Under the pieces are notes generated by a model that worked only from the letters and a program-made list of their open reading frames with translations, ran no database searches and was not told the origin of the DNA. A program made the translations under genes and the position numbers. A stretch of DNA of 64,000 nucleotides from Caenorhabditis elegans (lineage: Eukaryota; Nematoda; Chromadorea; Rhabditida; Rhabditidae). How positions within the stretch are numbered: the stretch's first letter is position 1; each line of letters begins with the position of its first letter. The DNA lies in assembly GCF_000002985.6 (NCBI RefSeq), contig NC_003283.11, positions 17,237,501 through 17,301,500 on the forward strand. Reading direction: 5' to 3'. Shown one piece after another: positions 27,454 through 56,229 of this stretch.

Positions 27454-27529
27454 CTGAAATATCAAAAAATTTCAAAAACTTCATTTCGCAATAAGGTAAT
27501 TATCGATATCATTGAAAAAAAGCACGCTG

Positions 27530-29923: not shown

Positions 29924-30457
29924 TTGAAATTTACCTTATGAAGCAAATGATTTGAGTTTAATGCAAAAAGGATGTTTTAGCGGACTGCGAGGATAAATTG
30001 AATTGTATAAAACTAATGATGATAGCAGTCTAACCAACAAGTTTTAAACCAAAATATTTCGAAATATGGTAGTTGCTCTGTTATCAGTTTCCTCAGTCGA
30101 AACAAAATCAAACAAGACTTCAAACATTTATTCAGCGTATGCAATTTGTCGGTGAAGGGAAATATTGATTTTTCCCCGAGTTCATTAAAAAACTAGAGAA
30201 AATTCTCGAATTCTGATTTTTCAAACTACTGATAAGACCATAGTTCACACAATCTCGTATACATTTAGACTGTAGGAATTCGGAAAAACACAAAGGAATA
30301 AAGATAAATAGCTCTCTTTTTTTTAACTTGAGCTCTATCAGATTTATCTCATGAGAATTTTCACGGCAAATTTTGAACCGAGATACCGGCAAGAGCGCAG
30401 TTTCACCAGCAACCGTAAGCCAAAGCTACATGGTGAAAAACATTGTAAATCCTTAAA

Positions 30458-31012: not shown

Positions 31013-32035
31013 TTTAAACGAATAGCAAAATCTAGAAAACAAACTTTCAACAAAAAAATAAAGAAAGTTTAAGAATAAGGGATGTTCCTTCCACCCGTTA
31101 TCAATTTCCTCACTCTAAAATGGCACATCACGAGGCATACTATTTCCTCATTGGTGTCAGGAGTAACTAACTTATGAGTGCGTCATCTATGAGAATATTT
31201 TATGGTGACACTACCTTCTTACGAGAAAAATGAACAAACAATAAAAAATTAAGAGTTTGGAAGATTTTCAGAAGTTTCAAGAATGCTCCAAACAGTTTAT
31301 TCACACGTTAAAAAGGCGGAGAAAGGGTTGTAACAGCTTCAGAAAATTCAATCTAAAAAACAAAAATCATTTATATGTATGCTACCAGAATAAAGGGAAC
31401 ACCGTATTTTACGGGTTTAATGAAAAAACTGTTTTAAAAACGTTTACTCGTTTTTCTAATACTCTCTATCGCTTCGACTCTTTTAGCCAACCAAAATCCT
31501 GATAACTGTATTTTTTAAATGTTTGTTTGATCTGAAAACAGTAATTTTTTAAATTTTTTCTGAAAGACCTGGTTAAAAGCGTCGTTGAAAAATTCAGGCA
31601 TCTTTCAGGCACGAAATATTTTGAGTTATTTTTCATAACTTTTTACAAAAAAATCAGTTCAAATATGTACATCTCTTTCCACCTTTCCATATTTATTTTT
31701 GATTTAAAAATAGTTGTTTTATTGAACTTAGAAGTTTTGTACGTTTGCCTAAAAATTCCCTGGTTTGAAAATGGTGCAACACTTTTTACAGTGACTGAGT
31801 TCTATTTTTCACGGCCACGTAGCTAATACCAATCAACAGTGTCCTCAAGTACCGAAAAAATTTTCCAGAGATATAGTTTTTGATTCCAACCCAATTCCCA
31901 ATAATATTGAACGCTGCTGATGTTGGAAAATATATGTTTATTTTTCTCATGTGCACTTTAAATTTTGTTTCACTACACAATAATTATCTTTTGCAGCCTA
32001 AAATGAATTTGAAAATCGGAACCTTCTTATTATTA

Positions 32036-33165
32036 GGGTGTTCGATAAGTTTTTTCGTTTTTTCTCAATTTTAATTTTTTCTTAAATATTTTTTTGTGAT
32101 TACATAGTAGTCAGTGAGTAGTGAAAAATTCATAAATACCAACCAGATCCAGCAACTTCCAGACTGCATCATCTGCCTTCGAGTGGCCGAGAAGAAAAAA
32201 AAATTTTTTCGATTTTTTTGGTGTTAGGTTTGAATGGAAATGTTAGTGTTTCATGCAGTTGGAAAACTTTTGTATAACGCAGATTAAAAATACCAGGCAG
32301 CGAAAAGCATTCCTTGATATCTTAAAATTTGAAAAAGTACCGAAAATTAGTTGCAAAAATTACAATTTTCACTTCAGAGGGGTATATCTTGGAATGCGTG
32401 ACAGATTTCTATTTATGAACAACTACAAAGATGTTAAGCATTTCTAAATGAACAAATCATATGTTGAAAACTTTTTTGTATCTTTCACCGTTTAAAAGTT
32501 ATACATCGGAGAAGCCTGCCAACTCGAATTTTCTAAAGTTTTGAAAATTGGACGTTTGTCTGAATATCTCGATTTCTAGCAAATCTATCAAAAAATCTAT
32601 AACTACAAAAATAATGACCAATTATTTCTACACATATTTGTAGTTGGCCATTTTAAGATATCTTTTATAGCAACAGAGTTATTGCTTCTATAAGAAAAAA
32701 ACTGAAAAATTTGATAATTTAACAAAAAAGTTTTCAACATATGATTTGTTCATTTAGAAATGCTTAACATCTTTGTAGTTGTTCATAAATAGAAATCTGT
32801 CACGCATTCCAAGATATACCCCTCTGAAGTGAAAATTGTAATTTTTGCAACTAATTTTCGGTACTTTTTCAAATTTTAAGATATCAAGGAATGCTTTTTG
32901 CTGCCTGATATTTTTAATCTGCGTTATACAAAAGTTTTCCAACTGCATGAAACCTTAACATTTCCATTCAAACGTAAAACCAAAAAAATCGAAAAAATTA
33001 TTTTTTCTTCTCGGCCACTCGAAGGCAGATGATGCAGTCTGGAAGTTGCCGGAACTGGTTGGTATTTATAAATTTTTCACTACTCACTGACTACTATGTA
33101 ATCACAAAAAAATATTTGAGAAAAAATCAAAACTGAGAAAAAACGAAAAAACTTATCGAACACCC
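32036..33165. mobile_element. Long inverted-repeat element with mariner-like ends
   Basis: Arms 32036-32479 and 32722-33165 (444 bp each) are near-exact inverted repeats around a 242-bp loop. Ends are GGGTGTTCGATAAGTTTTTT and its complement, flanked by TA on both sides, as expected for a Tc1/mariner-type insertion. No transposase frame seen, so non-autonomous. A related end (GGTCGTTCAATAAGTTTTTT) starts immediately to the right at 33171. Confidence 0.8.
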
Positions 33166-33959
33166 TAATAGGTCGTTCAATAAGTTTTTTCGTTTTTTTC
33201 TAGTTTTGGTTTTTTCTTGGATATTATTTTGCGGTTGTATAGAAGACTGTTAGTAATGACAAGCCCAACAATATCAACCATATCGGTCAACTTTCAGATT
33301 ATTTAAAACTCAGAACTATGATGACGAAAAAAATTTTTTTTTTCGAATTTTTTCATTTCTTTGTGAAATCAAAAATTTTGTATGCGTAGAGGTATTAGAC
33401 CGTTAGTTAAATAAAACTGTGAATTTCCAGACTTAGGCATAACTTATTGGTAGCGCTACATCTGTTGGAAGTGCCGAAAACGCTTGCAAAATTGACTTTT
33501 TTATGTTTGAGCGGTGCTAACTTTGAAATGATGAGAGATATACAAAAGTAATGTATTACAACATTAATGTACACATCATCAGCTACATTTTATCAGTATA
33601 TTACATTGTTGTCCCTCCTCATGTTTCTGAGTTACAGTCGATAGAAGTGAGCTTGGTCCAATTTTCAAAAACCCTAATTTTTCACGTTTTCGTCTGTAAC
33701 TCCGAAATCAGGCGCTTGATAAAAAATCTTCAAATTAAAAATTGAGCGATTTTAAATTATAATCAGGTACACAGTTGACCGTTTTGTCATGTCTCATATG
33801 TGGGCAAAGATATGAATTGTCAAAGAAAAGTAGCGGAAATTTCAGAAAATTTTCAAAAAAACATCTGATAATACACTTTCAATTACTAGAGAGATTAAAA
33901 ACCAAAAAGGGTCTGTGCTTGTCATATCTTCACACTCAAAATATCACCTGCATATTCTA

Positions 33960-38388: not shown

Positions 38389-40770
38389 ATGGAGAGCCCG
38401 GATTTCCTATTTTATACTTTACACGCAATGGGCGCTGTCACTTGTCCCCTCCAAATTCTCGGTATCTATTGCATTTTGTATAAAACTCCACACGCAATGA
38501 GTTCGGCCAAATGGGTGCTGCTTAACGCTCATATTTGGTCTCTTATATTTGATATAACAATAACTGAACTAATCATCACATTTCTAGTTTTTCCAGTTAT
38601 TGGAGCAGTTCCATTAGGAATTTTAACAAAGTGGCTCGATGTTCCCATTGGTTTCCAAGCTTATTCGATATGGACAATTTTATTCAGTAACTGATCTGAA
38701 ATGTGCGCTTTAAAGGTGGACTACACCCTGTGGGGAAATTGCTTTAAAACATGCCTCTGGGGCCACAATGACCGAATATCATGATAAAAAAAATTTAAAA
38801 AATTTTCTAAATTTTATATGATTTTTTGAAAATTGAAAAAATCTCAGTTTTCCCCTAATTATATTTGAATATCCGCCAATTGAATTCGTTCGTTGGAGCG
38901 CGCTTGCATTATTTTCATTAATTATTTTTATTAATTTTTATTATTTCACTGATTTTCATTATTTTTTAGGGTTTTTAATCGGAAAATAAAAGAAATAAAC
39001 AAGATAAATGCAGAATGTTTGTTAAAAAAATCACTGAAATTGCATAAAACTGTAAAATAAACTAATTTCAGGCTCGTCGTCGTCGGATCGCATAATTTCA
39101 AAGTTTCACACTTTCAACGACTTTTTAACAAACATTCTGCATTTATCTTGTTTATTTCTTTTATTTTCCGATTAAAAACCCTAAAAAATAAAGAAAATCA
39201 ATGAAATAATAAAAATTAATAAAAATAATTAATGAAAATAATGCAAGCGCGCTCCAACGAACGAATTCAATTGGCGGAAATTCAAATATAATTAGGGGAA
39301 AACTGAGATTTTTTCAATTTTCAAAAAATCATATAAAATTTAGAAAATTTTTTAAATTTTTTTTATCAAGATATTCGGTCATTGTGGCCCCAGAGGCATG
39401 TTTTAAAGCAATTTCCCCACAGGGTGTAGTCCACCTTTAAATAAATTTTCTCAATTTTCAGCGGTCTTGGTCTCCGACATGTTGATCTTCGAAAACAGGT
39501 ACTATCAATTATTTGGGAAACATAAAACTTGGCGTCACTTTCGAATACCAATGATTGTTATAAATTACGGAGTTGTTGCAACTTTTATGTTACCTACATA
39601 CTTGAGCATTCCTGATGATCAGTTAAAAGCTATTGATATAGCATTCAAGGTTTGGCTTTAAATATGTACAAATTTTTAAAAGATTATTTGAAAATACTTG
39701 GAACAGTCCAATCAGCTGAAATACCACAAAAGAAAAACTAGAAAAAAGGAAGATTGCAAAAATGCAATTTCCAAATACCCAACTTTCCAGCCAATCAGCG
39801 ATTCGCTCCGCCCACTTTAAAACCAATCAACGACTTTGAACTTCACACACTATATGATCGGTTTTAATGTGGGCGGAGCGAATCGCTGATTGGTTGGAAA
39901 ATTGCGTATTTGAAAAATTCGAACAGGGAGATTAGGCCAGATCTGAAAGACAAGCTTTTGAAAATTGAATTTTCTCAATCCTCCGTCGATTTTTTTTTCG
40001 TGTTTCTTTTGTGGTATTTCAGCCTATTGGACTAGTAGCCAATAATCCAGTCTTTCATTGCTCTACTTTCCAGTTAGGACTAGCGGTCATCACTAGTCAT
40101 TGAGTTGTCCCATTCTTGTCTCATTTCGAGCATAGTTAAACAAATCCTCTAAAACTGTTATGAAGCTATGAATAATGATGATGTGGGAAATTGAAACCAG
40201 AAAAAATTTCAGCAAATTCCAAGCCTCCCTACCGAGCTCCATGAACTCCATGAACTTCTTCATTTGGGCAAAAGATTATCAAGTTTTTTTGAAATCCCTA
40301 CTTTTCATCACTATCTTCGAGCTAATTCAATTCGTTCCCCTAATTATGTTAACCGATTGGAATGTGAGGACATCTATCAGAAAATCAACGCAATCACGGC
40401 AGACAATGCAGCTCCAGCTGAAATTTCTAATGACTCTTTATGCACAGGTAACCTATTGGAAAATAACTTAATCAAGCTGGGTTGATTTTAGAGCGGTGCG
40501 TTCTTCCTGGCTTGTTTCACTCCTTACGTTTATATATTGTATCCTTGTTTTACTAATTATTACAATCCAATTGCAAACAACTACATATTCATTTTCGTGG
40601 CGTCTCGCGGGTCTATGTGCACTTTAATCCTGCTCTTCGCATACAAACCGTATAAAAGAGCAGTTATCAGTATTTTTCGGAGACTATTACCCTCTTGGTG
40701 TTCGACGCAACCAGTTGCAAATTGGATTGGAACAATTATAATATCGAATCAGAACACTTCACTTTATTGA
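38389..40770 (+). CDS. Srh-family chemoreceptor, divergent, model incomplete
   Basis: Exon 1 (38389-38686): MESPDFLFYTLHAMGAVTCP, then IYCILYKTPHAM, SAKWVLLNAHIWSLIFDI and PLGILTKWLDVPIGFQ, classic srh TM1-TM3. Exon 2 (39462-39649): IFENRYYQLFGKHKTW and LPTYLSIPDDQLKA. Exon 3 (40213-40447): ASLPSSMNSMNFFIWAKD, a TM, and SRQTMQLQLKFLMTLYAQ. Exon 4 (40492-40770): TPYVYILYPCF, a TM7 and FAYKPYKRAVISIF. Exons 1-2 and 3-4 join in phase. Exon 2 (phase 0) and exon 3 (needs phase 2) do not join with any canonical sites I can see. The first exon also starts late for the family. Either a pseudogene or a gene with an unseen small exon. Introns 1 and 2 both contain palindromic elements. Confidence 0.6.
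38715..39435. mobile_element. 721-bp palindromic element in an srh intron
   Basis: Runs GGTGGACTACACCCTGTGGG ... to its reverse complement, nearly symmetrical about 39075, with TTTAAA directly on both sides (38709-38714 and 39436-39441). It fits the TTTAAA-flanked palindromic repeats known from C. elegans. It occupies intron 1 of the srh gene. Confidence 0.85.
39705..40037. mobile_element. Nested inverted-repeat elements in an srh intron
   Basis: Outer arms: AGTCCAATCAGCTGAAATAC and its near-complement ending at about 40035. Inner arms: CCAATCAGCGATTCGCTCCG (39791) and CGGAGCGAATCGCTGATTGG (about 39873-39892). An inner MITE appears to sit in an outer one, between srh exons 2 and 3. Confidence 0.6.
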
Positions 40771-40866
40771 AATTCGGCTAAAAAGCCTTTATTTCAAAAA
40801 TCGTACCTAAATCATTCGTTTTCATAAAATTAGAAAGAATTTTATATCATAGAATGTTTTATTAGT

Positions 40867-42522
40867 TCATTCAAAATCAACTCGAATAGTTGCGTTTTGG
40901 GGAACATCTGTTGTAGGAATTCTAGTCATTCGAATATGGATTTTGCCATTTTCAGTGTGAATTATCAATATCAGAGTGTTTTCTATAGAGCCAATTAACT
41001 TGAAGAACCATTTTCGACATTTGACTGCATTCTCGGTTTCAAGTAAAGGACGTCCAATAAGATCATACAAGTTCTCCAGTTCAAAGTTTTCGCAGATGAA
41101 ATGTAAACTCAGTGAGGATGCTAGGGATTTCTGAAATTCAATTTTTGTTTTAAATAACTTTGAACACTTTTTGGTAGTCGACACCCAGTTTCAGAAAATT
41201 TTGATTTTTTTTAAACTCCCTTCCTAAAAACTTGCCTGTTTCATGAAAAGCAAGTTGTCAACGGTGAAGTTTTGCAGGCAAACTTTGAGTGTTTTGAAAT
41301 GTTCGAATAATTGGTTAAAGTTCAATGGATCCGCATTGATCACACAGTCAATAACTTCGAGCTCCTCCAGATTCCTCCAGTGGTCCATCTCCGCTATTCG
41401 ATTTATTTCTATTGTCCCTCCAGTCTCCTCTTCCTTTTTTCTAGCGAATTCCAAAATCAGAAATTTCAATTTTCCAGCGTCAAAGCATTCGAGAAGCTCC
41501 AAAATTTCCGATTCGTTTCTCACGGCTAAACCTAAATTTACTAACTGGAATTTGTGGCTCCGAAGTACATTTGGCATGAGAATTTGCTTCACTTGTCTTT
41601 TTGCCTCGACTGCCTCATTGTCGTTTTCAAAATTAGGGCTATACGTGAAAAAGTTGAGACAATCTCTCTGATCTCTTAAAATGTACTGAAGATTACGCAT
41701 CAGATAGTTCATTGAAGTGTCGTCTGTCATATTCAGCTCTCGAATGCTCTGATAGTGTCCGAATTGAGCCAACTCAGTGATTTCGAGCTTGCAGCCTATT
41801 GGTTGCGGGGAGTAGTGAAAAACGGTGTGCGAGTTGAACTGTCGTATACGGAGTTTGGCATCATCACTGGACAAACTTAGTGAAATGTCATATGTTTGGA
41901 ATTTTGAATTTCTATGGTTCCGATCTACGAACTGGAGAAAGTCTTTGGAGACATTGCGGAGTGCTTCCCTGGAAAAAATGAAACATTTAAACTAGGGGTG
42001 GGCAGCAGACAATTTTTACTGGCAAACCGGCAAATTGCCGGAATTGAAAATTTTTGGCAAACCGGCAGTTGTCGAGTTGCCTAAAATTGTCGGCAAACTG
42101 TGGTTTTGCACATTTTTTCTGGAAACTTCAGATATTCAATTTTAATCAGAAAAATTAAACGCATCCTTTGAACGTGTCTCTATCATGAAATCTATCATGA
42201 AAAGCAAGCAGATACTATAAAAATACCTGAAAAATCGGGTAAAAAATTTCAAAAAGCGCTGTTTTAAGTGATTCTGTGTTATGAAAAATCCCTCTAAGGC
42301 CGACAAATCGACAGCCGGAATTAAAAATTTCCGTCAAACCGCAAATTGCCGATTTGCCGAACGGAACTTGCCATCCAAACCCTAATTTTGCTGAGTCAAC
42401 TCACACTGAGACGAATGCACAATCATTCACAATGTTCTTCATAATCTGTGGGAACCAGGTGACGAGCCGCAGCATATCAAACGGTGGTGATTTTTCTGCA
42501 TTTTCCCGTTGTTGCAATTTGA
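40867..42522 (-). CDS. F-box/FTH (DUF38) protein, unit 4 of the minus-strand array
   Basis: Exon A ends at 42405 and holds the F-box first half (PPFDMLRLVTWFPQIMKNIV). Exon B is 41968-41236: EALRNVSKDFLQFVDRNHRN, then FTH with MRNLQYILRD, MDHWRNLEELEVIDC and FEHFKTLKVC. Exon C is 41130-40867, ending with GKIHIRMTRI and VDFE. A to B joins in phase 2, B to C in phase 0. The B donor is CAG|GCAAGT, a GC-AG intron. Intron A-B contains a family C repeat (41995-42372). The 5' end is uncertain: the exon A frame is open back to about 42522 with no clear ATG. It may be spliced from the preceding FTH unit, which ends in overlapping sequence on the same strand. Likely an SCF adaptor-type protein. Confidence 0.68.
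41995..42372. repeat. Inverted-repeat element, family C
   Basis: GGGGTGGGCAGCAGACAATT start, dense CCGGCAAATTGCCGG motifs, and a GCCGAACGGAACTTGCC end. Sits in the intron of the F-box/FTH unit 4. Confidence 0.65.
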
Positions 42523-43696
42523 TGGGAAGCTCCTACAAAAACGGCAGATGTTTCATAGTAATATTTGACCTGGAGGTGTAGACTACAAACCCGCTTGAAA
42601 ATATACACTGGAACCCCTTGCCTTCCACAACATAGATAAGTTATAACTAGTTGATACTCCGTATTTTCCATTGGCAAATACCACTGCTTATTTCCCAATT
42701 CTTCATTTCCGTATTCAGCCTGAGCAGGTGTACCGAAAACGTCTTGTGATCTCGGTCCTCGTTCTCCCATATTATTGACGTCTTGACCTTCGTAAGCAAG
42801 GAAGTGAATAGCAAAGATGAAGTCAGTCGTGAAATTCGTAAAGTGCTGAAGTTTCACTTTAGTTAAATGGGAGCTCACAAAAATTGGAAACCTACCTTTT
42901 TCAATGAATTCAACTGCTCTAAATTGATTGTTGGAACAGTGAAGTTAGCCACAGAAAAATGAGAAAAATGCTCAAAATCTGACAGTGCAGTTGGAAACAC
43001 AAGCGACGGGCAGCTCATCTGTCTCACACTTTTCCACTGTTCTAGGTTGACAAGGAATTCACAAGCTTCCGGTTCGATGACTGTGCCTTTGAAAAATGGT
43101 GTTTCCAAAACAATTCCCTTAAGATCTATGAGGTCGCACCATGACAATAACGAGGCGGCGAGTTCAATGAGCGGTCGCTTCCAGAAGTATACCTCCAGAA
43201 AGTGGACTCTCAGTTTGTGATGTCGTTTTTCAAGCATTTCGACAATGTCTTGAAAAACCTTTTTATCAATGTCGTCCTCTTCAGAATCTTCGCGTAGATA
43301 TATTTTGAATCGAACCATGTTATTGTGACTCTTCAAAATCACTGTCAAATGGGAAATCGCCAACGAAACAACGTTTTCGTTTCGAGCCACCTCTTTTTGA
43401 AGATCACATTGAACCCGGCTCCCGTTCTGATAACGTTCATACTGGTGGGTTCGGCCATTTTGTTGATTTTGGAGAAAATAACTGAATCTCATGGTAATTC
43501 GGGTTTGTTCAATTGACATGTAAATCTCAGTGAGTTGTGCGCCTTTCATGGAATTCAATGTGTAAGGGAGTATCAAGGACCGAGTTGTGAAGGAACTGGA
43601 AAAATGACAAAAGTTGAGTTTTGTTTTTTAAATAAAACTTGGGACTTACAGTGGCAACATGGCTGGGTTATTGATTAGGTCAAGTGTTTGATGTTC
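42477..43696 (-). CDS. FTH (DUF38) unit 3 of the minus-strand array
   Basis: Exons 43696-43650 (linker, TLDLINNPAMLPL), 43595-42896 (main FTH) and 42845 downward (C-terminal FTH part). Main exon: RSLILPYTLNSMKGAQL, a central QDIVEMLEKRHHKLRVHFLE, the landmark LVNLEQWKSVRQM and LSDFEHFSHFSVANF, ending LEQLNSLKK before GTAGGT. The last exon reads HFTNFTTDFIFAIHFLAYEG, then DVFGTPAQAEYG and TEYQLVITYLCCGRQG. The first exon begins in phase 0 after TTTTCAG without an ATG. The preceding unit 2b ends in a phase-0 donor, so units 2b and 3 could belong to one transcript. If spliced rather than stopped at 42477, it may join unit 4 likewise. No F-box first half of its own was found. Confidence 0.6.
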
Positions 43697-43770
43697 CTGA
43701 AAATTAAAAACTATCAATTCAAGTGAGATTTTTTTTTCGGAAATGCAAATTTTACAGTCAAGTGTAGCGC

Positions 43771-44112
43771 ACCAGGGCTGTGCGGCAAACGACAATTGCC
43801 GAAGTTGCAAACGCTGAAACCTTCGGCAACCGGCAACTTCCGGTGGCCGAATCTTCGGCAACTTTTCGGCAACCGGCAACCAGGTTTCGAAGTTGTTTCT
43901 GTTAAAATTATATTTTTTGAGCGTTTTAGCAAAAATAATGGTCGTTTTTTCGTTTACGGCGAAGTATCAGCACTTTTCAGGCTCTCTGAATGCTTTTTTC
44001 TGAGCTCCAAAACGTTTGACATTGGTATCGGCAGTTGCCGAAGTTGCCGCACTCCCAAATGTTTGGCAACCGGCAATTGCCGAAGTTGCCGAACCCCAAA
44101 ATTTTCGGCAAA
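43771..44112. repeat. Family C repeat in the intron between FTH units
   Basis: Dense GGCAACCGGCAA and TTGCCGAAGTTGCCG blocks with partial inverted symmetry, between the last exon of unit 2b (ending 44264) and the first exon of unit 3. Confidence 0.6.
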
Positions 44113-44251
44113 CTTTTGGTTGCCACGGAAGAGCAAAAAATGTTTTCCCAGCAAAACAAGTTCAAGCGAATTCAGGAGTTAGTGAGGTGTCAGCGCAATA
44201 TTTATTACAATCACACCATTCAAAACTAGCATTCCTCCGAATTTCTGGAGA

Positions 44252-45396
44252 TCAAATAGTTACCTTTTCTGATACCGTTTCCACCATCGCGATACTTTCA
44301 AAAGTGAATGATTGCCCCACGGGAACACATGGGCGGTATTTTAAGAGAAGCCCAAATTTCGTGCTATGAGCCCGAATACGCCATTCCATGAGGGCATCTT
44401 CAATGCGGTCGGGTGCTCCAAACATTTCCAGTAGATTTGTAACATTCACATCTTCGTCTTTTGAAAGAGTGTCGTTGATGATAAACTTGAGCGGGATTGG
44501 AGAATTCAAGAAGTGCTGAAATTCAGAGTATTCTTGTTTTCGAATGAACAGTGGACGTGTCTATAAATTCTTGGGAATCCTTACACGGGCACAGCGGACC
44601 GGGATTGCTCAAAAGCGGCCCGAAGGTAGCTTAAATGTGCCGGCCGTTGGGCCGCTTTTGTGTAATCCCGTTTTGCATGTGATAGAAAAACGTTTCCCTC
44701 ACCTCTTTCAATATATAAAGATCTTGAATTGAAACTTGCTGTAACGTCACAGACACATTCGAAAAATGAAGCAACACTTCGATAGGAACGGATAATTGAA
44801 AAGATTCTGCTTTAAGCTCCTTGACATTCGTTGAATTTATTTCTTTCAACTCTAACTTTGCCTCCTGGACAGTAGTCTTACTCGATAGTTTCCGAAGCAA
44901 TCAGTGACAGGATTGTAAAGAACCGATTGTTTGGAGCGTGATTTTTCAAGTTCAGCTTAAAAGTTCCGACAATAAGCATCTGTGATCTTTGCTTTAAATG
45001 TGTCTCGAGATTATTCAACCAATATGGTAGAATTGTTTCATTTGAGTTATTTGGATCATCTTCTCGATTTGGCGCTGAGATCTCACCAGATTCAATTACA
45101 AACTTGTCAAACTCTTGCACACTATTCATTACGAAGTTCAGATCATCACAGGATGCAGTGACAAAGTCCTCGTCAAACACTACTTTGTGAAATTCATACT
45201 CCAACAGACATCCTTCTCTGTGATTTTTATAGCAGATGGTTTTGGTCGGCACGGATGAGTGAGTGAAGTTGATCTGAACCTGACCCTCGTCTATTTTAAC
45301 TTTGAGAGACCAGTTTTTCGACGCTTCTATTTTCTTGACGAGTGTATTTGAAATCGAGTATTTGAGAGTATTTGAAATCGGTTGGGAGATGGGGTG
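44252..45396 (-). pseudogene. FTH (DUF38) unit 2b, frameshifted
   Basis: Exon from 45396 (after TTTTTTCAG) reads HPISQPISNTLKYS, a 24-bp in-frame duplication (SISNTL repeated), IEASKNWSLKVKI, and FTH text to FFTILSLIASETIE, where it meets TAA at about 44878. The domain continues one frame over (KTTVQEAKLELKEINS ... IEVLLHFSNVSVTL ... LYILKE) to a donor at 44702. The intervening bases are too few for an intron, so this is a frameshift. The next exon, 44515-44264, gives HFLNSPIPLKFIIND and LLEMFGAPDRIEDA, then a GTAACT donor. Intron 44703-44516 contains a short hairpin (about 44600-44672). Likely dead or a damaged module of a larger gene. Confidence 0.6.
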
Positions 45397-45438
45397 CTGA
45401 AAAAAACTATTTTGCAGTACTATTGAAAGTGCCACAAC

Positions 45439-46468
45439 TCACCTCATCAACTCCAACTCAGAAGCCAACCGTCGACTGAAGTTGAATGAGCCGTACTTTC
45501 GCGGACGACAGAATATGTGTTTGGCCAGAACACAATTGTCAGAATTTGAAATCGGAATGCACCAAATTCGATCACATTGCTCTGCACTTGCATACTCTTC
45601 GTGAGCTGGTGGTCCAAAAATCTCTAGAAGTTTCTGAGCAACATTGACATTGACCTCGGAGGAACGGAGATATTGAATCTCAAACATCTGAGGGATGTCA
45701 GAAGTGATAAAATGCTGAAAAGCTTACATTTTCCAACAATAAAAAACCTCCCAGTGACTAACCTCTTTTAGAGACGTTAGATCCTCGAAACAAATCGGGT
45801 GGGCTATGATTGTTGCACGTGACAAATGCCCAAAATCCATCCTTGCGAATTTCACAGTAATATCCGACATAAAAATCATATCAGCTTGTTTCCATTGTTC
45901 CAGGCTCACAATACTTTCCAAGTTCAACGCGGTTGTCCTTTTATCCATGTCAAGCATGATAGCTTGAAGCGGGCCGGGTTCGAAAAATGAAAGTACGGAG
46001 GTCATGTAATTGATAGCGAGAGGATGGCATTTGAAATAGACACCACATACCATTGCTTTTATGGAATTTGGTTGAATAAATGCATCGAATACATTCAACA
46101 ATTCTGTATGTAGCATATCACTTTCATCTCCTACAACTCCTTCACACACTAATTTTCCGTGGAACACAAATGAAAATGATGCAAATGTACAATATCCAAT
46201 TCTGTCTAATAAGTACTTCAAGTGGGTGCAAAAAAGAGTACGATAATCTAGATTCACACTAAATTCATTTCTATTCTCAGAATCCACAGAGCATCCAGAC
46301 ATCTGTTTTTTATAATCAAAGATGGCATTTTGTTTTTCCAAGCTAGTTTTCAATTGATAAATGAGTTGAAATGTAATGGAGTCTTCTAGTATCGCTAGAA
46401 TGACTTTAATGTTCTGGCTGTCTTCGATTAATTTGACAGTCGACGAGTGATAGCTTGTCACAATTGGG
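45439..46468 (-). CDS. FTH (DUF38) unit 2a of the minus-strand array
   Basis: Main exon 46468-45763 starts in phase 2 after TTATTTCAG (PIVTSYHSSTVKLIEDSQN), with THLKYLLDRIGYCTFASFSF, VSLEQWKQADMIF and MDFGHLSRATIIA, ending LTSLKE before GTTAGT. Last exon 45714-45439 reads HFITSDIPQMFEIQYLRSSE, IFGPPAHEEYASAEQ and DRIWCIPIS, with stop at 45439 overlapped by a GTGAGT. No initiator ATG and no F-box exon is found in the 370 bp upstream, where a family B repeat (46630-46775) sits. Unit 1's final exon can splice into it in phase 2. Either a headless gene or a module of a longer transcript. Confidence 0.55.
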
Positions 46469-46629
46469 CTGAAATAATAATAATTAACTGGCAAAGAAAC
46501 CGGCAAGTTTTTCACTGCCCTAACAGTTTCCAGAAATTACACGTATCCTAACCAAAGCGTTCAGGCACATTCTAGTCTCCAAAACCAGGCAGGTAACTTT
46601 CCAAACCATATACCTATCTTCTTTCCTAC

Positions 46630-46775
46630 GGCTTCCATTCAGGCGCCATGTCTGCCTTGCGCCGCAAGCCGCGCCTCCTGTACAGTGCCGCTCGGAACCC
46701 GAAAAATGTCGGCCGTGGCGAAAGAACTATATTTGGCACATTGTGGTGTAAACACCAAGCCTTTGACTTCTCGCC
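46630..46775. repeat. GC-rich dispersed repeat, family B
   Basis: GCCATGTCTGCCTTGCGCCG, GTGTAAACACCAAGCCTTTG and the CGGCCGTGGCGAAAGAAC block. Lies between FTH units 1 and 2a. Confidence 0.65.
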
Positions 46776-46834
46776 GATCACAACTCGTTTGATAAGAGCT
46801 GATTGCAATACTGCGCCCACGTTAACATTGTTAC

Positions 46835-47917
46835 TCACTCCGAAAACTGCTTCACCGAAGGCGGCTCCCGTGTAAAAGTGAGCGAACGCAAATTTGCGTA
46901 TTCCCTCATGCACAAGTTAATTGCAATATCGTGCTTCTCGTCCATTACTTTAAATTTGTAAATGTCCTCTCCAGTTTCAGAATGATCTACATTGATTGGA
47001 TCTCCCAAGATTGTAGTTAATCCCATTTTTTGAGGACGTACCATATGAAGCCCATCAAAATCTCGATAGTGAATGACGTATTCACAAGCATGGGGACAAT
47101 CGAGGAAATGCTGTAATTTTGCAAAACTTTTAAAAAAGGAAGCCAAGTTAAAATTTAAAACTCACATTTTTCAAAAAGACCAAGTCATCAAAGTTGATCG
47201 AATTGAAAAAGCATGAGGCAGTCGACAAATGTGAGACTTGTTGAACAGGACCCGCCAAATAGAACGAGTTGATGCTCACCGCTTTGAGCTTTTTCCAGTT
47301 ATCCGATTCAACTATTTGATGGAAAATAGGCTTCTTATCTTCATCATCTTCATCCCAGTCTCTCTTCAATACCAAAACTTTTACATCCAACTGTGATATA
47401 ACTTTTTCAATAGGGTCGTCTGATGGCATCTCGAAAAGGCGCACAGAAAACTTTTTTAACGTCACATTTCTCGATTTCAGCATTTTAGCCATTTCCTCTA
47501 ATAGTAGCATTCCGACATGAGACACTACTTTGGGATTTAGTGACTTCCAACCTTTTTCGTTAACAAATTGAATAGATATATAAGAAACTGAAATTTCAGT
47601 TGCTAGTATCGCATTTAAATATTTCATGGAGGCGCTAATGTAGCCACTATCTTTGATAACCTCGTACATATGTCCACTGATCCCTGAACCATCGCCGTGA
47701 AAGCTAATCGTTATCCGGGAAGGGACTTTCCGGGTATAGATGGTTAATCGGACCGTAAACGATAATTCGGATTCCAATTCTTTTGGAGTCTTGTAGGGAA
47801 TTCAATGTGGAGGTCAAGATTTTAGATGATCTGAAGTAAGTTTTAAAAAATCAAATTGAAATTCCTCACTTTTTCTGAATGTAAAATATAACTCGCCCAT
47901 TTTTCGTGATTAGTCAT
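46835..47917 (-). pseudogene. FTH (DUF38) unit 1, probable frameshift
   Basis: Possible first exon 47917-47870 (MTNHEKWASYILHSEK). Main exon 47831-47166: its 5' part reads SSKILTSTLNSLQDSK, which aligns with TLNSMKG of unit 3, but the rest of the domain (ELESELSFTVRLTIYTRKV ... HVGMLLLEEMAKML ... FHQIVESDNWKKLKAVS) is in another frame; one base differs in the AAAAGAA run near 47783. Last exon 47110-46835: HFLDCPHACEYVIHYRDFDG to KQFSE. The stop is overlapped by a GTGAGT donor that would join unit 2a in phase. The part from 47276 up is repeated exactly in the right arm of the inverted duplication, frameshift included, so the shift predates that event. Confidence 0.55.
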
Positions 47918-48541
47918 TTTGAATACAAATAAGTAAAACACGATTAAAATAAATAACAAATATCTATCTTCAAATTTTGGTAAAGTGATTTTTTAGGTAA
48001 CACCCAACAAACAAATTAAAAAAATACCGGTTTTTTAGAAAAACTTTAAAAAATCTACATAATATTTGATAAAAACCTAACAAAACTGAACATTCAACTT
48101 TTCCGGTTAATTTAAAACTCACGTTTTGCTTTCCGGTTTTGACAATAAATGTGACAGTTTTTGGGACAAATCATTCATTTTTGAAAATTGTTATGCTTGT
48201 AGTAGTAGTATGAATATTTCCCGACGAGTGAGAATCGTAAGTTTATCAATATTCCTTATCGCACATTTCGTTAAATAAATGTAAAAAAAATTGATAACAA
48301 AATGGGAATTCGTTGTATTGCAATAAATCAAGTTTACACAAAATGCGTTTTTGACGGGAATTTAGCACTGTAATGAAACTTGTTTTAAATTTGTCCACAA
48401 AAGCTCGAAACGCATATACTTTTGGCCGATGCTGTTTAATTTTTTAAAAAAATCCAGGATTCCCCATGTTCATATATTTATTTACATATATTTATTGTTC
48501 GAAAAATAAAACGGTAGAATTGACTTCAGAAACTGAATATC

Positions 48542-48901
48542 TCATAGTAGTTGAGACAATTCTTGAATTGCTCCATTGGAAACTCCTTCCGTAAGTTTTC
48601 CAATCATATTTGAGACTCCGCCAATATCTTTAATTGAAAGCCCCTGAAAATGCTGAATATCAAAATGATACTTGTTATTTATGAATTTTATTATAGATCG
48701 CTGAGCGACTTCGAAAATTGTAGGAAATGGCTAAGAAATTCATCAAATTCATGTTGAGTGAATTATTTAATTTTCACTAACGTCACCAGTTTCTCAAATA
48801 TAATTGTTTTTTTGAAAACTCACAGGTCCTGTAGCAATTTGAGAGAATCCGAAGTTTGCTGCACAGGCGACAAGGACAAGAAGATAGACGATAAAATTCA
48901 T
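48542..48901 (-). CDS. Small secreted peptide, 59 aa (left copy)
   Basis: Two exons, 48901-48824 and 48643-48542, with a GTGAGT donor and TTTTCAG acceptor, phase 0. Product: signal peptide MNFIVYLLVLVACAANFGFS, then a short mature part (QIATGPGLSIKDIGG ... NGAIQELSQLL), no cysteines. TATAAAAAG lies about 35 bp upstream and AATAAA about 40 bp downstream, which makes a compact, real-looking gene. I do not recognise the family; nematode-specific small secreted peptides, including antimicrobial ones, have this gross form. Its mirror copy at 52594-52953 is identical as far as I can see. Confidence 0.65.
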
Positions 48902-49882
48902 GTTGACTGAGTTGTGAGTATTTATTTTACAGGGCTCTTTTTATATGAAACAGTGACAAAAGAGGGATCCAATAAAAACATGTTATTCTGAATTCTCGGA
49001 TACTCCTTTTGTATTATCTGTTTTGAGAATACAATAAGAACTGAATAGGAATTTTTTCAAAAAAAAAATTTATTACATAAAAATGACACGTTACACGAAA
49101 ACATACGAAAAGAGAGAAAATTGAATTTACAGAAAAACACGTGGAATATTTAAAAATCAGAGAAAATATCACAGAGGGATTGACTGAAAATCGAAAATAA
49201 CAAGTTTTGTTGGGTTACGAATTTTCATAGTCTCGTCCTCAGCACCTAGTTTCAATTGTTCGATTCTCTCTGGAAATTCCGATTCTTGAAAGCTTTATAA
49301 GCTTTTGAAAATGTTAAACACCCATTGGAAGTCCCAATTTGAGACGGTGGATACCAGAAATGTGTTAAACATGTTGAAACCTTAAGGTGGATTTAAGGAT
49401 TTCAGTTTAAAATGCGCTGGTCCCCCGCCAAAAAAAGACTACTGATTTCGGCGAATTTTAAATTTTGGATAATTACTTATTTGAATTATCGCATCTTGAA
49501 ACTGCGCCCATTTTTTCCGCGCCGCACTTTGAAGTGTTTTTAATTCCAAAGCAATTTTTTGTTCTTATCCAAATTTTAGAGTGAAGCACAGTTGCCTATG
49601 CACGGCCTCCTATAGCGTTAAGCCTACATGTGGTGTTCTCTTTTATAATACTATTTTTTTTAGGTAGTTGGTGTTTATGCAACAGCTAGTTCGGAATTCC
49701 CAATTCATTATTACGATTATGTTTTTCTTACTATTAATTAAAAGTTCCCACGCTCAAAACCTAGATTTTGTTCCGTTGTTATTCTGTCTGATTTGCGATA
49801 TTGTGTTTTCTGTTTTCATTCAGACCTCAACAAACTTCTGTTTTTTTTTCCTACTTTTAATTTGCAGAAACAAACCCGTCAA
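48902..49882. other. Spacer between the peptide gene and srw
   Basis: Divergent promoter region shared with the right arm. AT-rich, no exon supported. An open frame from 49668 to 50015 is the srw exon read in another frame. Confidence 0.4.
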
Positions 49883-51147
49883 ATGGATGCTAATTACGTT
49901 GAAATGTTTCCTGAATTCAGTATTGAATCGATACGTATACTTTGTGCAATTGCAAATTTTATGGGCTCCTTCAATTATTATTCAGATCATGTTCATTTTG
50001 TTGCAGTTTTTGTAGGAACGTTTCTCGGAGTTATACATTTAACGATTCTTACTAGAAAATGTATGAGATCACTGAGCATCAATGTGTTTCTAATTGGAAT
50101 TGCCGCTGCTGAAATTATCCGGGAAATTTGTATTATTATAATTTTCGTTCCATTCTTTGATTTACGTTATTTGAGCGACGAAGTTTCAGATTGGTAAACT
50201 TTAATTAAACAATTGTGTTGTACATTGTTAGAGCTGCCATGGGAGGCAGGCGCGGTTTCAGAGCTTGACGCCGGCCTCTTGTCTTGTTTTTATGTTTCTA
50301 CACTATCGCGAGAAGTCAGGCTTGGTGTTTACACCAAATAATGCAAAAGGTGGTTCTTTCGAGGCGGCTGACACTTTCAGGGTTCCGCCCGGCACTATAC
50401 AAAAGGCGCGGCTTGAGGCGGGAGGCAGGCGTTTTGGCGCCTGTATGGAAGCCCTAGTTGTAGTATTGCACGCGCCCTAATCGTGCAGTGCTTGATGTTC
50501 GGTAGAGCGCAATTACACTGATGTGCCACTAACCTGGTCCGTCCTGCGGCCGACGCTCCACGGGTGCGTATGGTGCAGGCGGTCGATTTCATTGTCTTAT
50601 TTGAGTACAAGTCTAACATTTCAGTTCCAATCCCAACTCGACTGTGGCGGTGTTTTCATATAATGTCTCGGCATCCTTCACGAGACTCACAGAAAAAATA
50701 TCAGTTTGGTACGCTGTTGCTATAGCTGTTATTCGAACTCTTATGAGATACCCAGTGAATGTTAGGTATAAAAATTTTCGTCCCCTTCGGTTTTTAGCTT
50801 ATCGCTTTCAGAATCAACTGTTTGACTCAATCCACATATGGCCTAAGAATCGTTTTATTAATCACCCTATCAATTATTCCATTTGGAGCGCTTAGCTATT
50901 TCAAGTTAAGCTCCACATCAGATAGAGGATGGACTCCATTCACAAATTGTGTAACTTTTTCGGAAAATTCGACAAAAATGAAATTCGATTCTCACTCCAC
51001 TGAATTGTTCGGAAGCACAGACGTCTACAAAATTGCTCTTCTTATTGAAGGAATTTTCTTAGAATTCACGCCATCAATTATTCTACCGATTACCACTATA
51101 AGTTTGATCATGGATTTGAGAAAAGCACGGAAAAACTCACTGGCCAC
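49883..51147 (+). pseudogene. Srw chemoreceptor truncated by the inverted duplication
   Basis: Exon 1 49883-50193: MDANYVEMFPEFSIESIRIL, TM1 FVAVFVGTFLGVIHLTILTR and SINVFLIGIAAAEIIREI. Exon 2 from 50625: TRLTEKISVWYAVAIAVIRT and LMRYPVNVR, ending before GTATAA at about 50766. Exon 3 from about 50811: INCLTQSTYGLRIVLLIT, FKLSSTSDRGWTPF, and TM5 FTPSIILPITTISLIMDLRK. After KNSLAT at 51147 the text is the right arm of the inverted duplication, so TM6, TM7 and the tail are gone. Intron 1 contains a family B repeat (50231-50460). The residual frames are open, so the break is probably recent. Confidence 0.8.
50231..50460. repeat. GC-rich dispersed repeat, family B, at the duplication edge
   Basis: GGGAGGCAGGCGCGGTTTCA to GCGGGAGGCAGGCGTTTTGG. 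The left half (to 50347) is in the inverted duplication and the right half is only in the spacer, so the breakpoint lies inside this repeat. Confidence 0.75.
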
Positions 51148-51301
51148 TTTGCATTATTTGGTGTAAACACCAAGCCTGACTTCTCGCGATAGTGTAGAAA
51201 CATAAAAACAAGACAAGAGGCCGGCGTCAAGCTCTGAAACCGCGCCTGCCTCCCATGGCAGCTCTAACAATGTACAACACAATTGTTTAATTAAAGTTTA
51301 C

Positions 51302-51612
51302 CAATCTGAAACTTCGTCGCTCAAATAACGTAAATCAAAGAATGGAACGAAAATTATAATAATACAAATTTCCCGGATAATTTCAGCAGCGGCAATTCCA
51401 ATTAGAAACACATTGATGCTCAGTGATCTCATACATTTTCTAGTAAGAATCGTTAAATGTATAACTCCGACAAACGTTCCTACAAAAACTGCAACAAAAT
51501 GAACATGATCTGAATAATAATTGAAGGAGCCCATAAAATTTGCAATTGCACAAAGTATACGTATCGATTCAATACTGAATTCAGGAAACATTTCAACGTA
51601 ATTAGCATCCAT
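51302..51612 (-). pseudogene. Inverted copy of srw exon 1
   Basis: Mirror of 49883-50193, encoding MDANYVEMFPEFSIE to SDEVSDW with one change (FVGTFVGVIH instead of FLG). No further exons follow on this strand beyond the duplicated part of the intron, so it is a fragment. Confidence 0.8.
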
Positions 51613-52593
51613 TTGACGGGTTTGTTTCTGCAAATTAAAAGTAGGAAAAAAAAACAGAAGTTTGTTGAGGTCTGAATGAAAACAGAAAACACAATATCGC
51701 AAATCAGACAGAATAACAACGGAACAAAATCTAGGTTTTGAGCGTGGGAACTTTTAATTAATAGTAAGAAAAACATAATCGTAATAATGAATTGGGAATT
51801 CCGAACTAGCTGTTGCATAAACACCAACTACCTAAAAAAAATAGTATTATAAAAGAGAACACCACATGTAGGCTTAACGCTATAGGAGGCCGTGCATAGG
51901 CAACTGTGCTTCACTCTAAAATTTGGATAAGAACAAAAAATTGCTTTGGAATTAAAAACACTTCAAAGTGCGGCGCGGAAAAAATGGGCGCAGTTTCAAG
52001 ATGCGATAATTCAAATAAGTAATTATCCAAAATTTAAAATTCGCCGAAATCAGTAGTCTTTTTTTGGCGGGGGACCAGCGCATTTTAAACTGAAATCCTT
52101 AAATCCACCTTAAGGTTTCAACATGTTTAACACATTTCTGGTATCCACCGTCTCAAATTGGGACTTCCAATGGGTGTTTAACATTTTCAAAAGCTTATAA
52201 AGCTTTCAAGAATCGGAATTTCCAGAGAGAATCGAACAATTGAAACTAGGTGCTGAGGACGAGACTATGAAAATTCGTAACCCAACAAAACTTGTTATTT
52301 TCGATTTTCAGTCAATCCCTCTGTGATATTTTCTCTGATTTTTAAATATTCCACGTGTTTTTCTGTAAATTCAATTTTCTCTCTTTTCGTATGTTTTCGT
52401 GTAACGTGTCATTTTTATGTAATAAATTTTTTTTTTGAAAAAATTCCTATTCAGTTCTTATTGTATTCTCAAAACAGATAATACAAAAGGAGTATCCGAG
52501 AATTCAGAATAACATGTTTTTATTGGATCCCTCTTTTGTCACTGTTTCATATAAAAAGAGCCCTGTAAAATAAATACTCACAACTCAGTCAAC
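51613..52593. other. Spacer of the right arm
   Basis: Mirror of 48902-49882. No exon supported. Contains the TATAAAAAG upstream of the peptide gene at about 52551. Confidence 0.4.
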
Positions 52594-52953
52594 ATGAATT
52601 TTATCGTCTATCTTCTTGTCCTTGTCGCCTGTGCAGCAAACTTCGGATTCTCTCAAATTGCTACAGGACCTGTGAGTTTTCAAAAAAACAATTATATTTG
52701 AGAAACTGGTGACGTTAGTGAAAATTAAATAATTCACTCAACATGAATTTGATGAATTTCTTAGCCATTTCCTACAATTTTCGAAGTCGCTCAGCGATCT
52801 ATAATAAAATTCATAAATAACAAGTATCATTTTGATATTCAGCATTTTCAGGGGCTTTCAATTAAAGATATTGGCGGAGTCTCAAATATGATTGGAAAAC
52901 TTACGGAAGGAGTTTCCAATGGAGCAATTCAAGAATTGTCTCAACTACTATGA
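52594..52953 (+). CDS. Small secreted peptide, 59 aa (right copy)
   Basis: Exons 52594-52671 and 52852-52953, phase 0, identical in form and predicted product to the left-arm copy. The duplication carried the whole transcription unit including about 1 kb upstream and more than 600 bp downstream, so both copies could be expressed. The effective dose of this peptide may be doubled (inference). Confidence 0.65.
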
Positions 52954-53577
52954 GATATTCAGTTTCTGAAGTCAATTCTACCGTTTTATTTTTCGAACAA
53001 TAAATATATGTAAATAAATATATGAACATGGGGAATCCTGGATTTTTTTAAAAAATTAAACAGCATCGGCCAAAAGTATATGCGTTTCGAGCTTTTGTGG
53101 ACAAATTTAAAACAAGTTTCATTACAGTGCTAAATTCCCGTCAAAAACGCATTTTGTGTAAACTTGATTTATTGCAATACAACGAATTCCCATTTTGTTA
53201 TCAATTTTTTTTACATTTATTTAACGAAATGTGCGATAAGGAATATTGATAAACTTACGATTCTCACTCGTCGGGAAATATTCATACTACTACTACAAGC
53301 ATAACAATTTTCAAAAATGAATGATTTGTCCCAAAAACTGTCACATTTATTGTCAAAACCGGAAAGCAAAACGTGAGTTTTAAATTAACCGGAAAAGTTG
53401 AATGTTCAGTTTTGTTAGGTTTTTATCAAATATTATGTAGATTTTTTAAAGTTTTTCTAAAAAACCGGTATTTTTTTAATTTGTTTGTTGGGTGTTACCT
53501 AAAAAATCACTTTACCAAAATTTGAAGATAGATATTTGTTATTTATTTTAATCGTGTTTTACTTATTTGTATTCAAA
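52954..53577. other. Spacer of the right arm downstream of the peptide gene
   Basis: Mirror of 47918-48541. Contains the AATAAA of the peptide gene. No exon seen. The left mirror has the same content. Confidence 0.4.
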
Positions 53578-54219
53578 ATGACTAATCACGAAAAATGGGC
53601 GAGTTATATTTTACATTCAGAAAAAGTGAGGAATTTCAATTTGATTTTTTAAAACTTACTTCAGATCATCTAAAATCTTGACCTCCACATTGAATTCCCT
53701 ACAAGACTCCAAAAGAATTGGAATCCGAATTATCGTTTACGGTCCGATTAACCATCTATACCCGGAAAGTCCCTTCCCGGATAACGATTAGCTTTCACGG
53801 CGATGGTTCAGGGATCAGTGGACATATGTACGAGGTTATCAAAGATAGTGGCTACATTAGCGCCTCCATGAAATATTTAAATGCGATACTAGCAACTGAA
53901 ATTTCAGTTTCTTATATATCTATTCAATTTGTTAACGAAAAAGGTTGGAAGTCACTAAATCCCAAAGTAGTGTCTCATGTCGGAATGCTACTATTAGAGG
54001 AAATGGCTAAAATGCTGAAATCGAGAAATGTGACGTTAAAAAAGTTTTCTGTGCGCCTTTTCGAGATGCCATCAGACGACCCTATTGAAAAAGTTATATC
54101 ACAGTTGGATGTAAAAGTTTTGGTATTGAAGAGAGACTGGGATGAAGATGATGAAGATAAGAAGCCTATTTTCCATCAAATAGTTGAATCGGATAACTGG
54201 AAAAAGCTCAAAGCGGTGA
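53578..54219 (+). pseudogene. Inverted partial copy of FTH unit 1
   Basis: Mirror of 47276-47917: MTNHEKWASYILHSEK, SSKILTSTLNSLQDSK, the same frameshift, then FTH text up to ESDNWKKLKAV, where the copy ends. The open frame continues to 54584 only by running into a family C repeat, so the 288-residue frame is a chimera and not a gene product. Confidence 0.75.
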
Positions 54220-54257
54220 ACTGCTACTTGCTGAGCTTTTTGTTTTTTCATTTTGTT

Positions 54258-54697
54258 TCCGCAAACGGCAAATCGACAATTTGCCGAAATTATAATTTCC
54301 GGCAGAACCGGAAAATCGGAAATTTGCCGGAATTGAACATTTCCGGTATACCGGCAAATTGGCAATGTGCCCGATTTTTAATTCCCGGCATACCGGCAAA
54401 GTGTCGATTGGCCGAATTTGCCGGAAAACGGCGATTGCCAAATATTTGTGGTTTTGCGCATTTTGTTTTGAAAATTTCAAACTTTCAAATTCAATCGGCA
54501 AAACTGTACGCATCATATAAATGTTCCTACATCTATTTCTGCAAATTGATATCCGGCAAGCGGCAATTCGGCAATTATCCGTAAATGAAATTTCCCGGCA
54601 AATCGGCAAACCGGCAAATAGTCAAAATTGAAAATTTACGTTAAATCAGCAAACCGGCAATTTGCCTATTTGCTGAACGGCAATTTCCGCCCACCCC
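54258..54697. repeat. Family C repeat at the outer edge of the right arm
   Basis: Dense CCGGCAAATTGGC/GCCGAATTTGCCGG motifs ending CGGCAATTTCCGCCCACCCCC. It begins about 40 bp beyond the end of the inverted duplication. Confidence 0.7.
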
Positions 54698-54713
54698 CAA
54701 CACAGATAATATA

Positions 54714-56229
54714 CTAAATTATGTTGTTCCGTGTTATCATATTTATATTCGCAGTATTGACTGACGAAACTTTTGAGACTGAAACGTCATTTTTCCAAAA
54801 TAATAACATTCGTTTTGCCGCTTTTCGGTATTCAGATGCCAGAAAGTAGGAAATTAGAAAATGAATAGTGCCATTAACTATTGATAAAAATGAATATATA
54901 ATGGAGAATTCATTAACTATAACTCTGGAAATTACCTTTTTTTGGAAATCAAAATTCAATTGGCTTACCTGAAAATAGAGCCCTCTAAACTTTGAAAAAT
55001 AATAATGTAGGAGACGCCTTGTGGTATGCTAGCAATGAGAAATGTTAAAGTGACAAATATTACTAATTTCGATGTTTTTTCCTTGTCACTTTTCTTTCTA
55101 ATTGTAATTTTGACATTTTTCCATTTTCGGAGCTCAAAAACCAATACTAAAGTTGCAATCGACAGAACTACCGATGGAATAAACTTGAATAATATTCCAT
55201 CAACATTTAACAATACTTCAAGCAGTTCAGTTGCCATATAATAATACTCGATTTGAGTAAAGTTGGACGGGAAACCTAAGCAAGTTGGAGACGGTTGCCA
55301 ACTGGAAATTGGCTCGATAGTTACTTGATATTGAATAAGAAACATAAATGGTAACATTATAACGGGAATAGGAATGACTGCCCAAAGACCAGCTTTCGAA
55401 GTGACGAGTGAGTTGAGTCGAAAATTAAATTTGATTTCTGACAACTTTGAAAAAAAAATTTGAAAACTGACAACAGGTAGCTTACCGCTGTTGCAAGGGG
55501 TAACGCATGACCAGAGCACGAAAGATTGTCATAAAAACTGCAAACCAAACTGGCAAGTCCGATGCAATCATTTCTAATGAACTAAAAGTTAGAAGAATTA
55601 ACATTTCCAGATAGGATTTTGGAGCCACACTGAAATGACATAAAAAGTTTGATTTTTTTCAAAATTGAAAAAAAAGTTACCAATTCTCTGGAGTATTAAG
55701 CAATACAAACTCTTCATAAAACATTTGTAAATTTGAGAAAACTGTGCCAATCATTCGAACGAGATCACAAATTGCAATTCCAATTAGGAATACAGTTACT
55801 GAAGAGTTTCTCATAGATTTCCGTGTGAGCACTGCTAAATGGAAAATGTTGCCGAATAATCCGAAGATAGCGATCACGAAACTTGCATATCCAAGAAAAA
55901 ATTTGAAATTGCTAAAAAAAAATGTTAGAAAATCAACGGGAATGATCTTATTTTATAAAAATTTCACATTGAAAATCGTTTTAAAAAAAATTTGTGACTT
56001 AACTTTTTGTGAAACCGATGCTGAAACTATCACCATTATGAAATGGTTTCACTTTTTTCAATGTAGAGCCTTTTCTTTGTAAAATCTTCAATGTTTTGGC
56101 AAAATTGTTAAAAGTGAAAGGTGTTGCATACCTGGCGAAAATCAAGACAGAAATCCAAAATCGTTTTGATTCTGAATCTAGATCACCAAAATTGATGTAG
56201 TCATATTCTGTCAAGTCGGCGTTCGACAT
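54714..56229 (-). CDS. Srw chemoreceptor, one splice acceptor doubtful
   Basis: Exons 56229-56132, 55911-55681, 55629-55486, about 55419-54969 and 54924-54714. Product features: MSNADLTEYDYINFGDLD, TM1 FVIAIFGLFGNIFHLAVLTR, SSVTVFLIGIAICDLVRM, LEMIASDLPVWFAVFM, FRALVMRYPLQQ, GFPSNFTQIEYYYMATELLE, FKFIPSVVLSIATLVL, and TM7 SIVNGTIHFLISYFLASEYR. Closest local relative is the srw pseudogene at 23174-24825. At the start of exon 4 the paralogue has TATTTCAG|CATCAATTC. Here the aligned text is AATTTTCGACTCAACTC, with no AG in the right phase. The acceptor appears mutated, or an alternative one shifts frame. Everything else is intact. Confidence 0.68.

Follow-up and report, generated by a model that had tools for sequence, protein, structure and literature searches.

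Newborn gene duplicates of Caenorhabditis elegans often lie adjacent and inverted to one another, and partial or chimeric structures are frequent among them, as the available passages of two studies describe (PMC2728529, PMC3449122), the former with the suggestion that the inversion belongs to the duplication event itself. Polymerase theta leaves another described mark in this species, namely short templated inserts that derive from the flanks, need minimal homology and are overall smaller than 25 bp, according to the accessible part of PMC5068794. Here, we analyze a stretch of 64,000 nucleotides of C. elegans chromosome V (17237501-17301500; hereafter the window, to whose numbering all coordinates refer unless a chromosome is named), which carries an inverted duplication with arms of 3,072 bp that abuts the broken end of an srw chemoreceptor gene. 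At a probability of about 0.72, we consider this pair a recent inverted partial duplication that arose from the faulty repair of one break in the srw gene.

Geometry and polarity of the inverted pair

The initial annotation of the window had placed arms of 3,072 bp around an 800-bp spacer, mirrored at a constant position sum of 101495, and base-by-base pairing of each position i with 101495-i reproduces this geometry exactly: from 47276/54219 to 50347/51148, 3,071 of the 3,072 pairs are complementary, and no indel interrupts them. The single substitution that had been noticed, 50024 versus 51471, is still the only difference once all 3,072 pairs have been compared. Identity extends right up to the arm ends without any gradient, pairing fails directly beyond them (mismatches at 47275/54220 and 50348/51147), and the 800-bp spacer hardly pairs with itself (301 of 400 pairs mismatched). 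The pair also ranks first in the repeat listing of the window, with outer ends 9 bp longer than in the exact pairing; chance is no consideration at this length. A whole-genome search with the arm, in which 40 of 91 candidates were scored, returned just two full-length copies among the matches listed, together with at least 51 partial matches of 40-735 bp at 70-92% identity (the count of small matches being a lower bound), and the outer 1.1 kb of the arm gave the same picture.

Paralogous regions on chromosomes V and II of the same genome served as outgroups for the question of which arm is the older. The region at chrV 17498332-17512723 shows piecewise collinearity with window positions 40098-46503, 49625-51141 and 54350-55918 (84-92% identity; 92% for 50614-51141 against chrV 17507615-17508145), and it also contains a second srw copy in direct tandem as well as some repeat matches that are out of order. 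Taken as a whole, window 40098-55918 and chrV 17498332-17512723 look like an older segmental duplication of ~15 kb, its halves ~210 kb apart. A region at 13.77 Mb of chromosome II is collinear with window 46000-46537, 46834-47864, 48057-48343 and 48787-49117. Both borders of the left arm (47276-50347, plus strand) are crossed by such similarity, the outer one at 47276 by the chrII match 46834-47864 and the inner one at 50347 by the chrV match that begins at 49625 and reaches 50518. At the right arm (51148-54219, minus strand), paralog similarity breaks off at 51149 and 54221, no more than 2 bp from either border. At the sole mismatch, moreover, all three paralog sequences carry the left-arm base, so that the base at 51471 in the right arm is the derived one. 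Because the left arm is collinear across both of its borders, similarity stops at those of the right arm and the derived base lies on the right, the left arm is the original (donor) copy and the right arm the new inverted copy. Beyond the right arm, collinearity with the chrV paralog resumes at 54350-55918 (plus strand; 85% identity to chrV 17511199-17512723).

The broken srw gene and its scar

Between the arms lies the middle of an srw gene (49883-51166, plus strand; PF10324, E 1.4e-56), whose predicted exons 49883-50193, 50625-50765 and 50812-51163 join in frame and stay open up to the inner end of the right arm. The gene reads ...CTGGCCAC up to 51147, where the right arm begins (junction J1, 51147/51148), while an srw paralog goes on past this point with ACAAAAAGCTCGGCAAGTAGCAGT. 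That stretch is found inverted at 54243-54220, on the minus strand and directly adjoining the outer end of the right arm (junction J2, 54219/54220), with 23 of 24 bases identical (E 5.6e-5). It is the sole match in the window (E ≤0.01) to the paralog stretch beyond the break; for the remainder of that stretch, the coding sequence of the srw 3' end, the 64-kb window contains no match. When up to three mismatches are allowed, the scrap occurs only once more in 284.4 kb, namely in the paralog at chrV 17508150, and a simple equal-base formula gives a chance expectation of 1e-8. On its other side, the scrap meets the repeat-rich right flank within a T-run, as judged by eye (junction J3, at 54243/54244 within a few bases), and here the srw 3' end is missing. 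The srw gene is thus broken after 51147, with its next 24 bases now inverted beyond the right arm.

The breakpoints that J1 and J3 imply in the srw gene agree within 2 bp, since 51146-51147 read AC, as do the two bases with which the scrap begins, and that of J2 lies 24 bp away from this point. This coincidence makes independent events unlikely and points to one event at one break; likewise, that the far junction has retained 24 bp of the broken gene argues for an origin in one step. By eye, GTGG at 50350-50353 can be aligned with the srw end if a gap of 2 nt is allowed, and GCATCA adjoins J2, where it is common to the arm flank and to srw paralog a, though not to paralog b. GGCCAC at 51142-51147 was considered as a filler insertion and rejected, as it aligns codon by codon with the srw sequence of the paralogs.

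From the outside inward, each arm carries an FTH-domain exon (PF01827), a small secreted-looking gene and the first srw exon (PF10324), the first two heading outward and srw heading inward. The spacer (50348-51147, plus strand) comprises what is left of the first srw intron, including a dispersed repeat, followed by srw exons 2 and 3 as far as the break, as indicated by the paralog match and the in-frame predicted exons. After 51147, the left srw gene continues for five residues into the right arm before a stop codon (51164-51166), so that it covers positions 1-226 of the 319 of the Srw profile and is without 227-319, whereas two scanned pieces of paralog a extend to position 318. Its exon 2 is one codon shorter than in both paralogs. 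Of 263 codons, 31 differ nonsynonymously and 20 synonymously from paralog a, against 40 and 36, respectively, for paralog b, counts that may include changes from before as well as after the break. The right arm holds exon 1 alone (51302-51612, minus strand, the mirror of 49883-50193), without the remainder of the gene. A further srw-type gene lies in the right flank at 54965-55519 (minus strand, opposite to the broken gene; PF10324 positions 111-267) and has a 76% relative at window 23500-23771; it is not the missing srw 3' end.

The outer arm border is spanned by the left FTH-domain (F-box-type) gene, which has two exon frames at 46838-47801 on the minus strand and is collinear with chromosome II; the profile scan matched PF01827 at 47151-47801 (E 2.7e-6) and gave no FTH match for the frame 46838-47161 taken alone. 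The chrII relative of the FTH exon also looks degraded by eye. The corresponding right frame (53694-54581, plus strand) is cut at 54219 and continues through the srw scrap into repeat sequence, scoring 12.4 bits for FTH, under the cut-off of 22. Between these outer and inner genes, the small secreted-protein-like gene is found once at 48542-48901 (minus strand) and, in mirror image, at 52594-52953 (plus strand), whole within the arm; it has a signal-peptide-like start by eye and matched no Pfam family. Its first exon (arm ~1535-1769) has ~30 relatives in mixed orientation among the matches listed, mostly clustered and mainly at chrV 17.89-18.31 Mb and chrII 1.85-2.08 Mb. The outcome would be a complete small secreted-protein-like gene that is doubled, an srw gene left as a truncated receptor plus an isolated first exon, and an FTH gene with an additional, truncated copy that has recruited a tail.

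Proposed repair mechanism, age and competing explanations

A single repair event that involved template switching, and in which the srw 3' end was lost, accounts best for the arrangement. In such a scenario, a break would occur inside srw, and its right-hand end would be trimmed to a T/A-run, prime on A-rich srw sequence at the break and copy 24 bases there. A template switch to 47276 would then allow the arm to be copied over 3,072 bases to 50347, before the new end and the left broken end are joined. Microhomology-mediated template switching together with end joining of the polymerase theta type could suffice for all of this in one event. If true, a single repair event doubles a small gene, leaves two srw fragments and provides the FTH frame with a new tail.

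Several observations weigh against this reading. Exact abutting microhomology is absent at J1 and J2, where by eye matches are found only nearby or across a gap, and the enzyme is therefore a guess. The copied tract of 3 kb far exceeds the size of polymerase theta inserts, so that an extra, longer synthesis step is needed. Long-read sequencing of C. elegans lines found 0 inversions among 40 spontaneous structural mutations, albeit with poor inversion recall, as stated in the available text of PMC13322394. The ancestral allele was deduced from paralogs of 68-92% identity and from no other isolate. Lastly, a two-step route, in which a direct tandem duplication is followed by an inversion with deletion, yields the same three junctions.

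We consider this latter route unlikely, although it deserves to be spelled out. A direct tandem duplication would have ended 24 bp past the later srw break, and the second copy would then have been inverted with loss of the srw 3' end; indeed, 51148-54243 read in reverse gives srw plus 24 bp, followed by a direct copy of the arm from 47276. Tandem duplications of ~100 bp to 10 kb build up in helq-1 mutants of C. elegans, according to the part of PMC8654963 at hand. However, the route requires that an independent inversion breakpoint happened to fall no more than 24 bp from the duplication junction, and a deletion in addition.

The near-identity of the arms may also be read as an old inverted repeat that is held identical by arm-to-arm gene conversion, which seems improbable to us. 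The initial annotation had left the choice between a very recent event and continuing gene conversion, and of these two the former is supported. Such conversion has been proposed for some inverted gene pairs of C. elegans, and the available passages of PMC1803023 describe pairs with arms or genes 95.7-100% identical and a structure common to related species. Here, however, identity reaches the arm ends without a gradient, the sole difference is polarized to the copy, and sequence outside the arms, beyond the reach of arm-to-arm conversion, is undecayed (the scar at 23 of 24 bases and the open srw frame of the spacer), the last being a test of little power on such short stretches. Recency is supported by the same four features, namely the one derived base on the right arm, the identity to the arm ends, the undecayed scar and the open srw frame, and as a recent origin already accounts for the arm identity, no gene conversion needs to be invoked. 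One substitution in 3,072 sites corresponds to ~89,000 generations since the duplication (95% Poisson range ~2,250-495,500) at a rate of ~1.83e-9 per site per generation, obtained as 4.22e-8 divided by ~23 from the accessible part of PMC8727991, and provided that no conversion took place and that the substitution postdates the duplication. This difference belongs to the C/G type, an uncommon one among mutations of C. elegans (29 of 3,125 substitutions in mismatch-repair knockdown lines, in the passages available of PMC8727991). Because of this rarity, one may speculate that 50024/51471 could be a copying error within the duplication event.

An assembly or clone artefact, with no such duplication in living worms, is very improbable. 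Inverted repeats are prone to rearrangement in clones, and the analysis covered a single assembly; nonetheless, one base distinguishes the two arms, and a 24-bp scrap, present in place nowhere else, lies at a third junction. A mobile element with long terminal inverted repeats can practically be dismissed: two long inverted arms do flank a spacer, but they contain parts of three host-type genes, their borders coincide with a gene break at which no duplicated target was seen, and the matches listed comprise no third full-length copy and nothing else above 92% identity.

The inverted arms would have a conceivable sequel at the RNA level. A read-through transcript of the left srw gene could fold on the right arm, where exon 1 could pair with a complement of 311 nt at 310 of 311 positions, and could feed Dicer and a pathway of the ERI-6/7 type, which is described to target recent duplicates in the available portion of PMC3213143. 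The signal AATAAA is absent from the srw-sense strand at 51164-52400, and variant signals are present there; in chrV 17502000-17511900, which holds two srw paralogs, 81 start positions share exact 22-nt identity with srw exon 1. That the locus is a newborn natural source of hairpin RNA that silences intact srw paralogs nevertheless strikes us as a distant prospect. At the DNA level, further rearrangement driven by the putative hairpin of the arms, as also proposed in the initial annotation, is plausible.

Neighbouring repeats and known systems

How unusual the pair is in its surroundings was assessed by an ungapped scan for inverted arms of at least 300 bp and at least 95% identity within 20 kb of each other, over 284,400 contiguous bases around the locus. 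Besides the 3,072-bp pair (99.97%), which is the longest and most identical, the scan returned six shorter matches, three of which (747 bp at 95.7%, 581 bp at 99.1%, and 328 bp) are segments of a single further inverted duplication. The notion that no other inverted pair reaches 500 bp and 95% identity in the 284.4 kb was rejected in view of the 747- and 581-bp pairs. This second duplication, at chrV 17400003-17401825 and 17402473-17404306, lies ~109 kb beyond the arms and has arms of ~1.8 kb at 94.8% identity (76 mismatches, 7 gaps) with a spacer of 647 bp; it contains short open frames, partly matches repeats elsewhere and looks older than the 3,072-bp pair.

Other repeats are also found in this region. 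Within the window, a tandem array at 27434-29970 comprises seven mostly identical copies of a 359-bp unit, with one spacing of 346 bp, and a ~650-bp direct duplication at 16109-17702 (1,029-bp spacing, 98.6% identical) adjoins inverted relatives at 18218-19303; an Srh chemoreceptor open reading frame is located at 18708-19694. Two inverted repeats, one at 32031-33170 (449 bp, 97%, 242-bp gap) and one at 38709-39441 (320 bp, 99%, 93-bp gap), may be foldback elements; the 320-bp pair was also returned by the ungapped scan. Outside the window, chrV 17384201-17394529 is a ~10-kb tandem array of short-period units.

The locus was not recognized in the published literature on the subject, as far as titles and the beginnings of abstracts cover it, with supplements and gene names lying outside that scope. 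Two inverted duplications between N2 lines, of 5.4 kb on chromosome III and 12.9 kb on chromosome V, are reported in PMC10634987; they differ in size from the 3,072-bp arms, and the available passages of that paper do not give their positions.

Among the systems to which the locus may be compared, the foldback inverted duplications of yeast (PMC10622511, available passages) are likewise inverted duplications induced by a break. However, they originate at short inverted repeats whose spacers measure 6 or 35 bp, whereas the spacer here is 800 bp long; a single-strand foldback at a short inverted repeat is thus unsupported at our locus, where no priming repeat was identified, although none was systematically sought. 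Closer at hand, the F44E5.4/F44E5.5 and hsp-16 inverted pairs of the same species share the near-identical inverted arms and the short spacer. As described in the accessible part of PMC1803023, these are whole gene pairs common to related species, while at the present locus genes are cut and the estimated age is recent.

The resemblance to polymerase theta scars (PMC5068794, in the part available) lies in the insert of ~24 bp that derives from the flank and sits at a deletion junction with little homology, and the scrap does start at the srw break, as expected of a short insert templated nearby. Exact homology of at least one base is lacking at J1 and J2, as judged by eye, and is conceivable only at J3 with its T-run; unlike such scars, moreover, the locus also has a 3-kb inverted copied tract.

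By its sequence, the locus belongs to a known kind, the young inverted partial gene duplicates. It resembles the partial and chimeric duplicates of Katju and Lynch, as portrayed in the available passages of PMC2728529 and PMC3449122, in being adjacent, inverted and of near-zero divergence (3,071 of 3,072 pairs across a gap of 800 bp), and also in its cut genes, its copies of unlike structure and the recruitment of neighbouring sequence. The duplicated tract ends inside genes, the derived copy is partial and recruiting (FTH is cut at 54219, and the right arm has srw exon 1 only), and ancestral and derived copies can be told apart by outgroups, which here are the chrV and chrII paralogs instead of other species. 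What sets the locus apart from those duplicates, as they are described in these passages, is that its scar can be read: the displaced 24 bp tie all of the junctions to one break.

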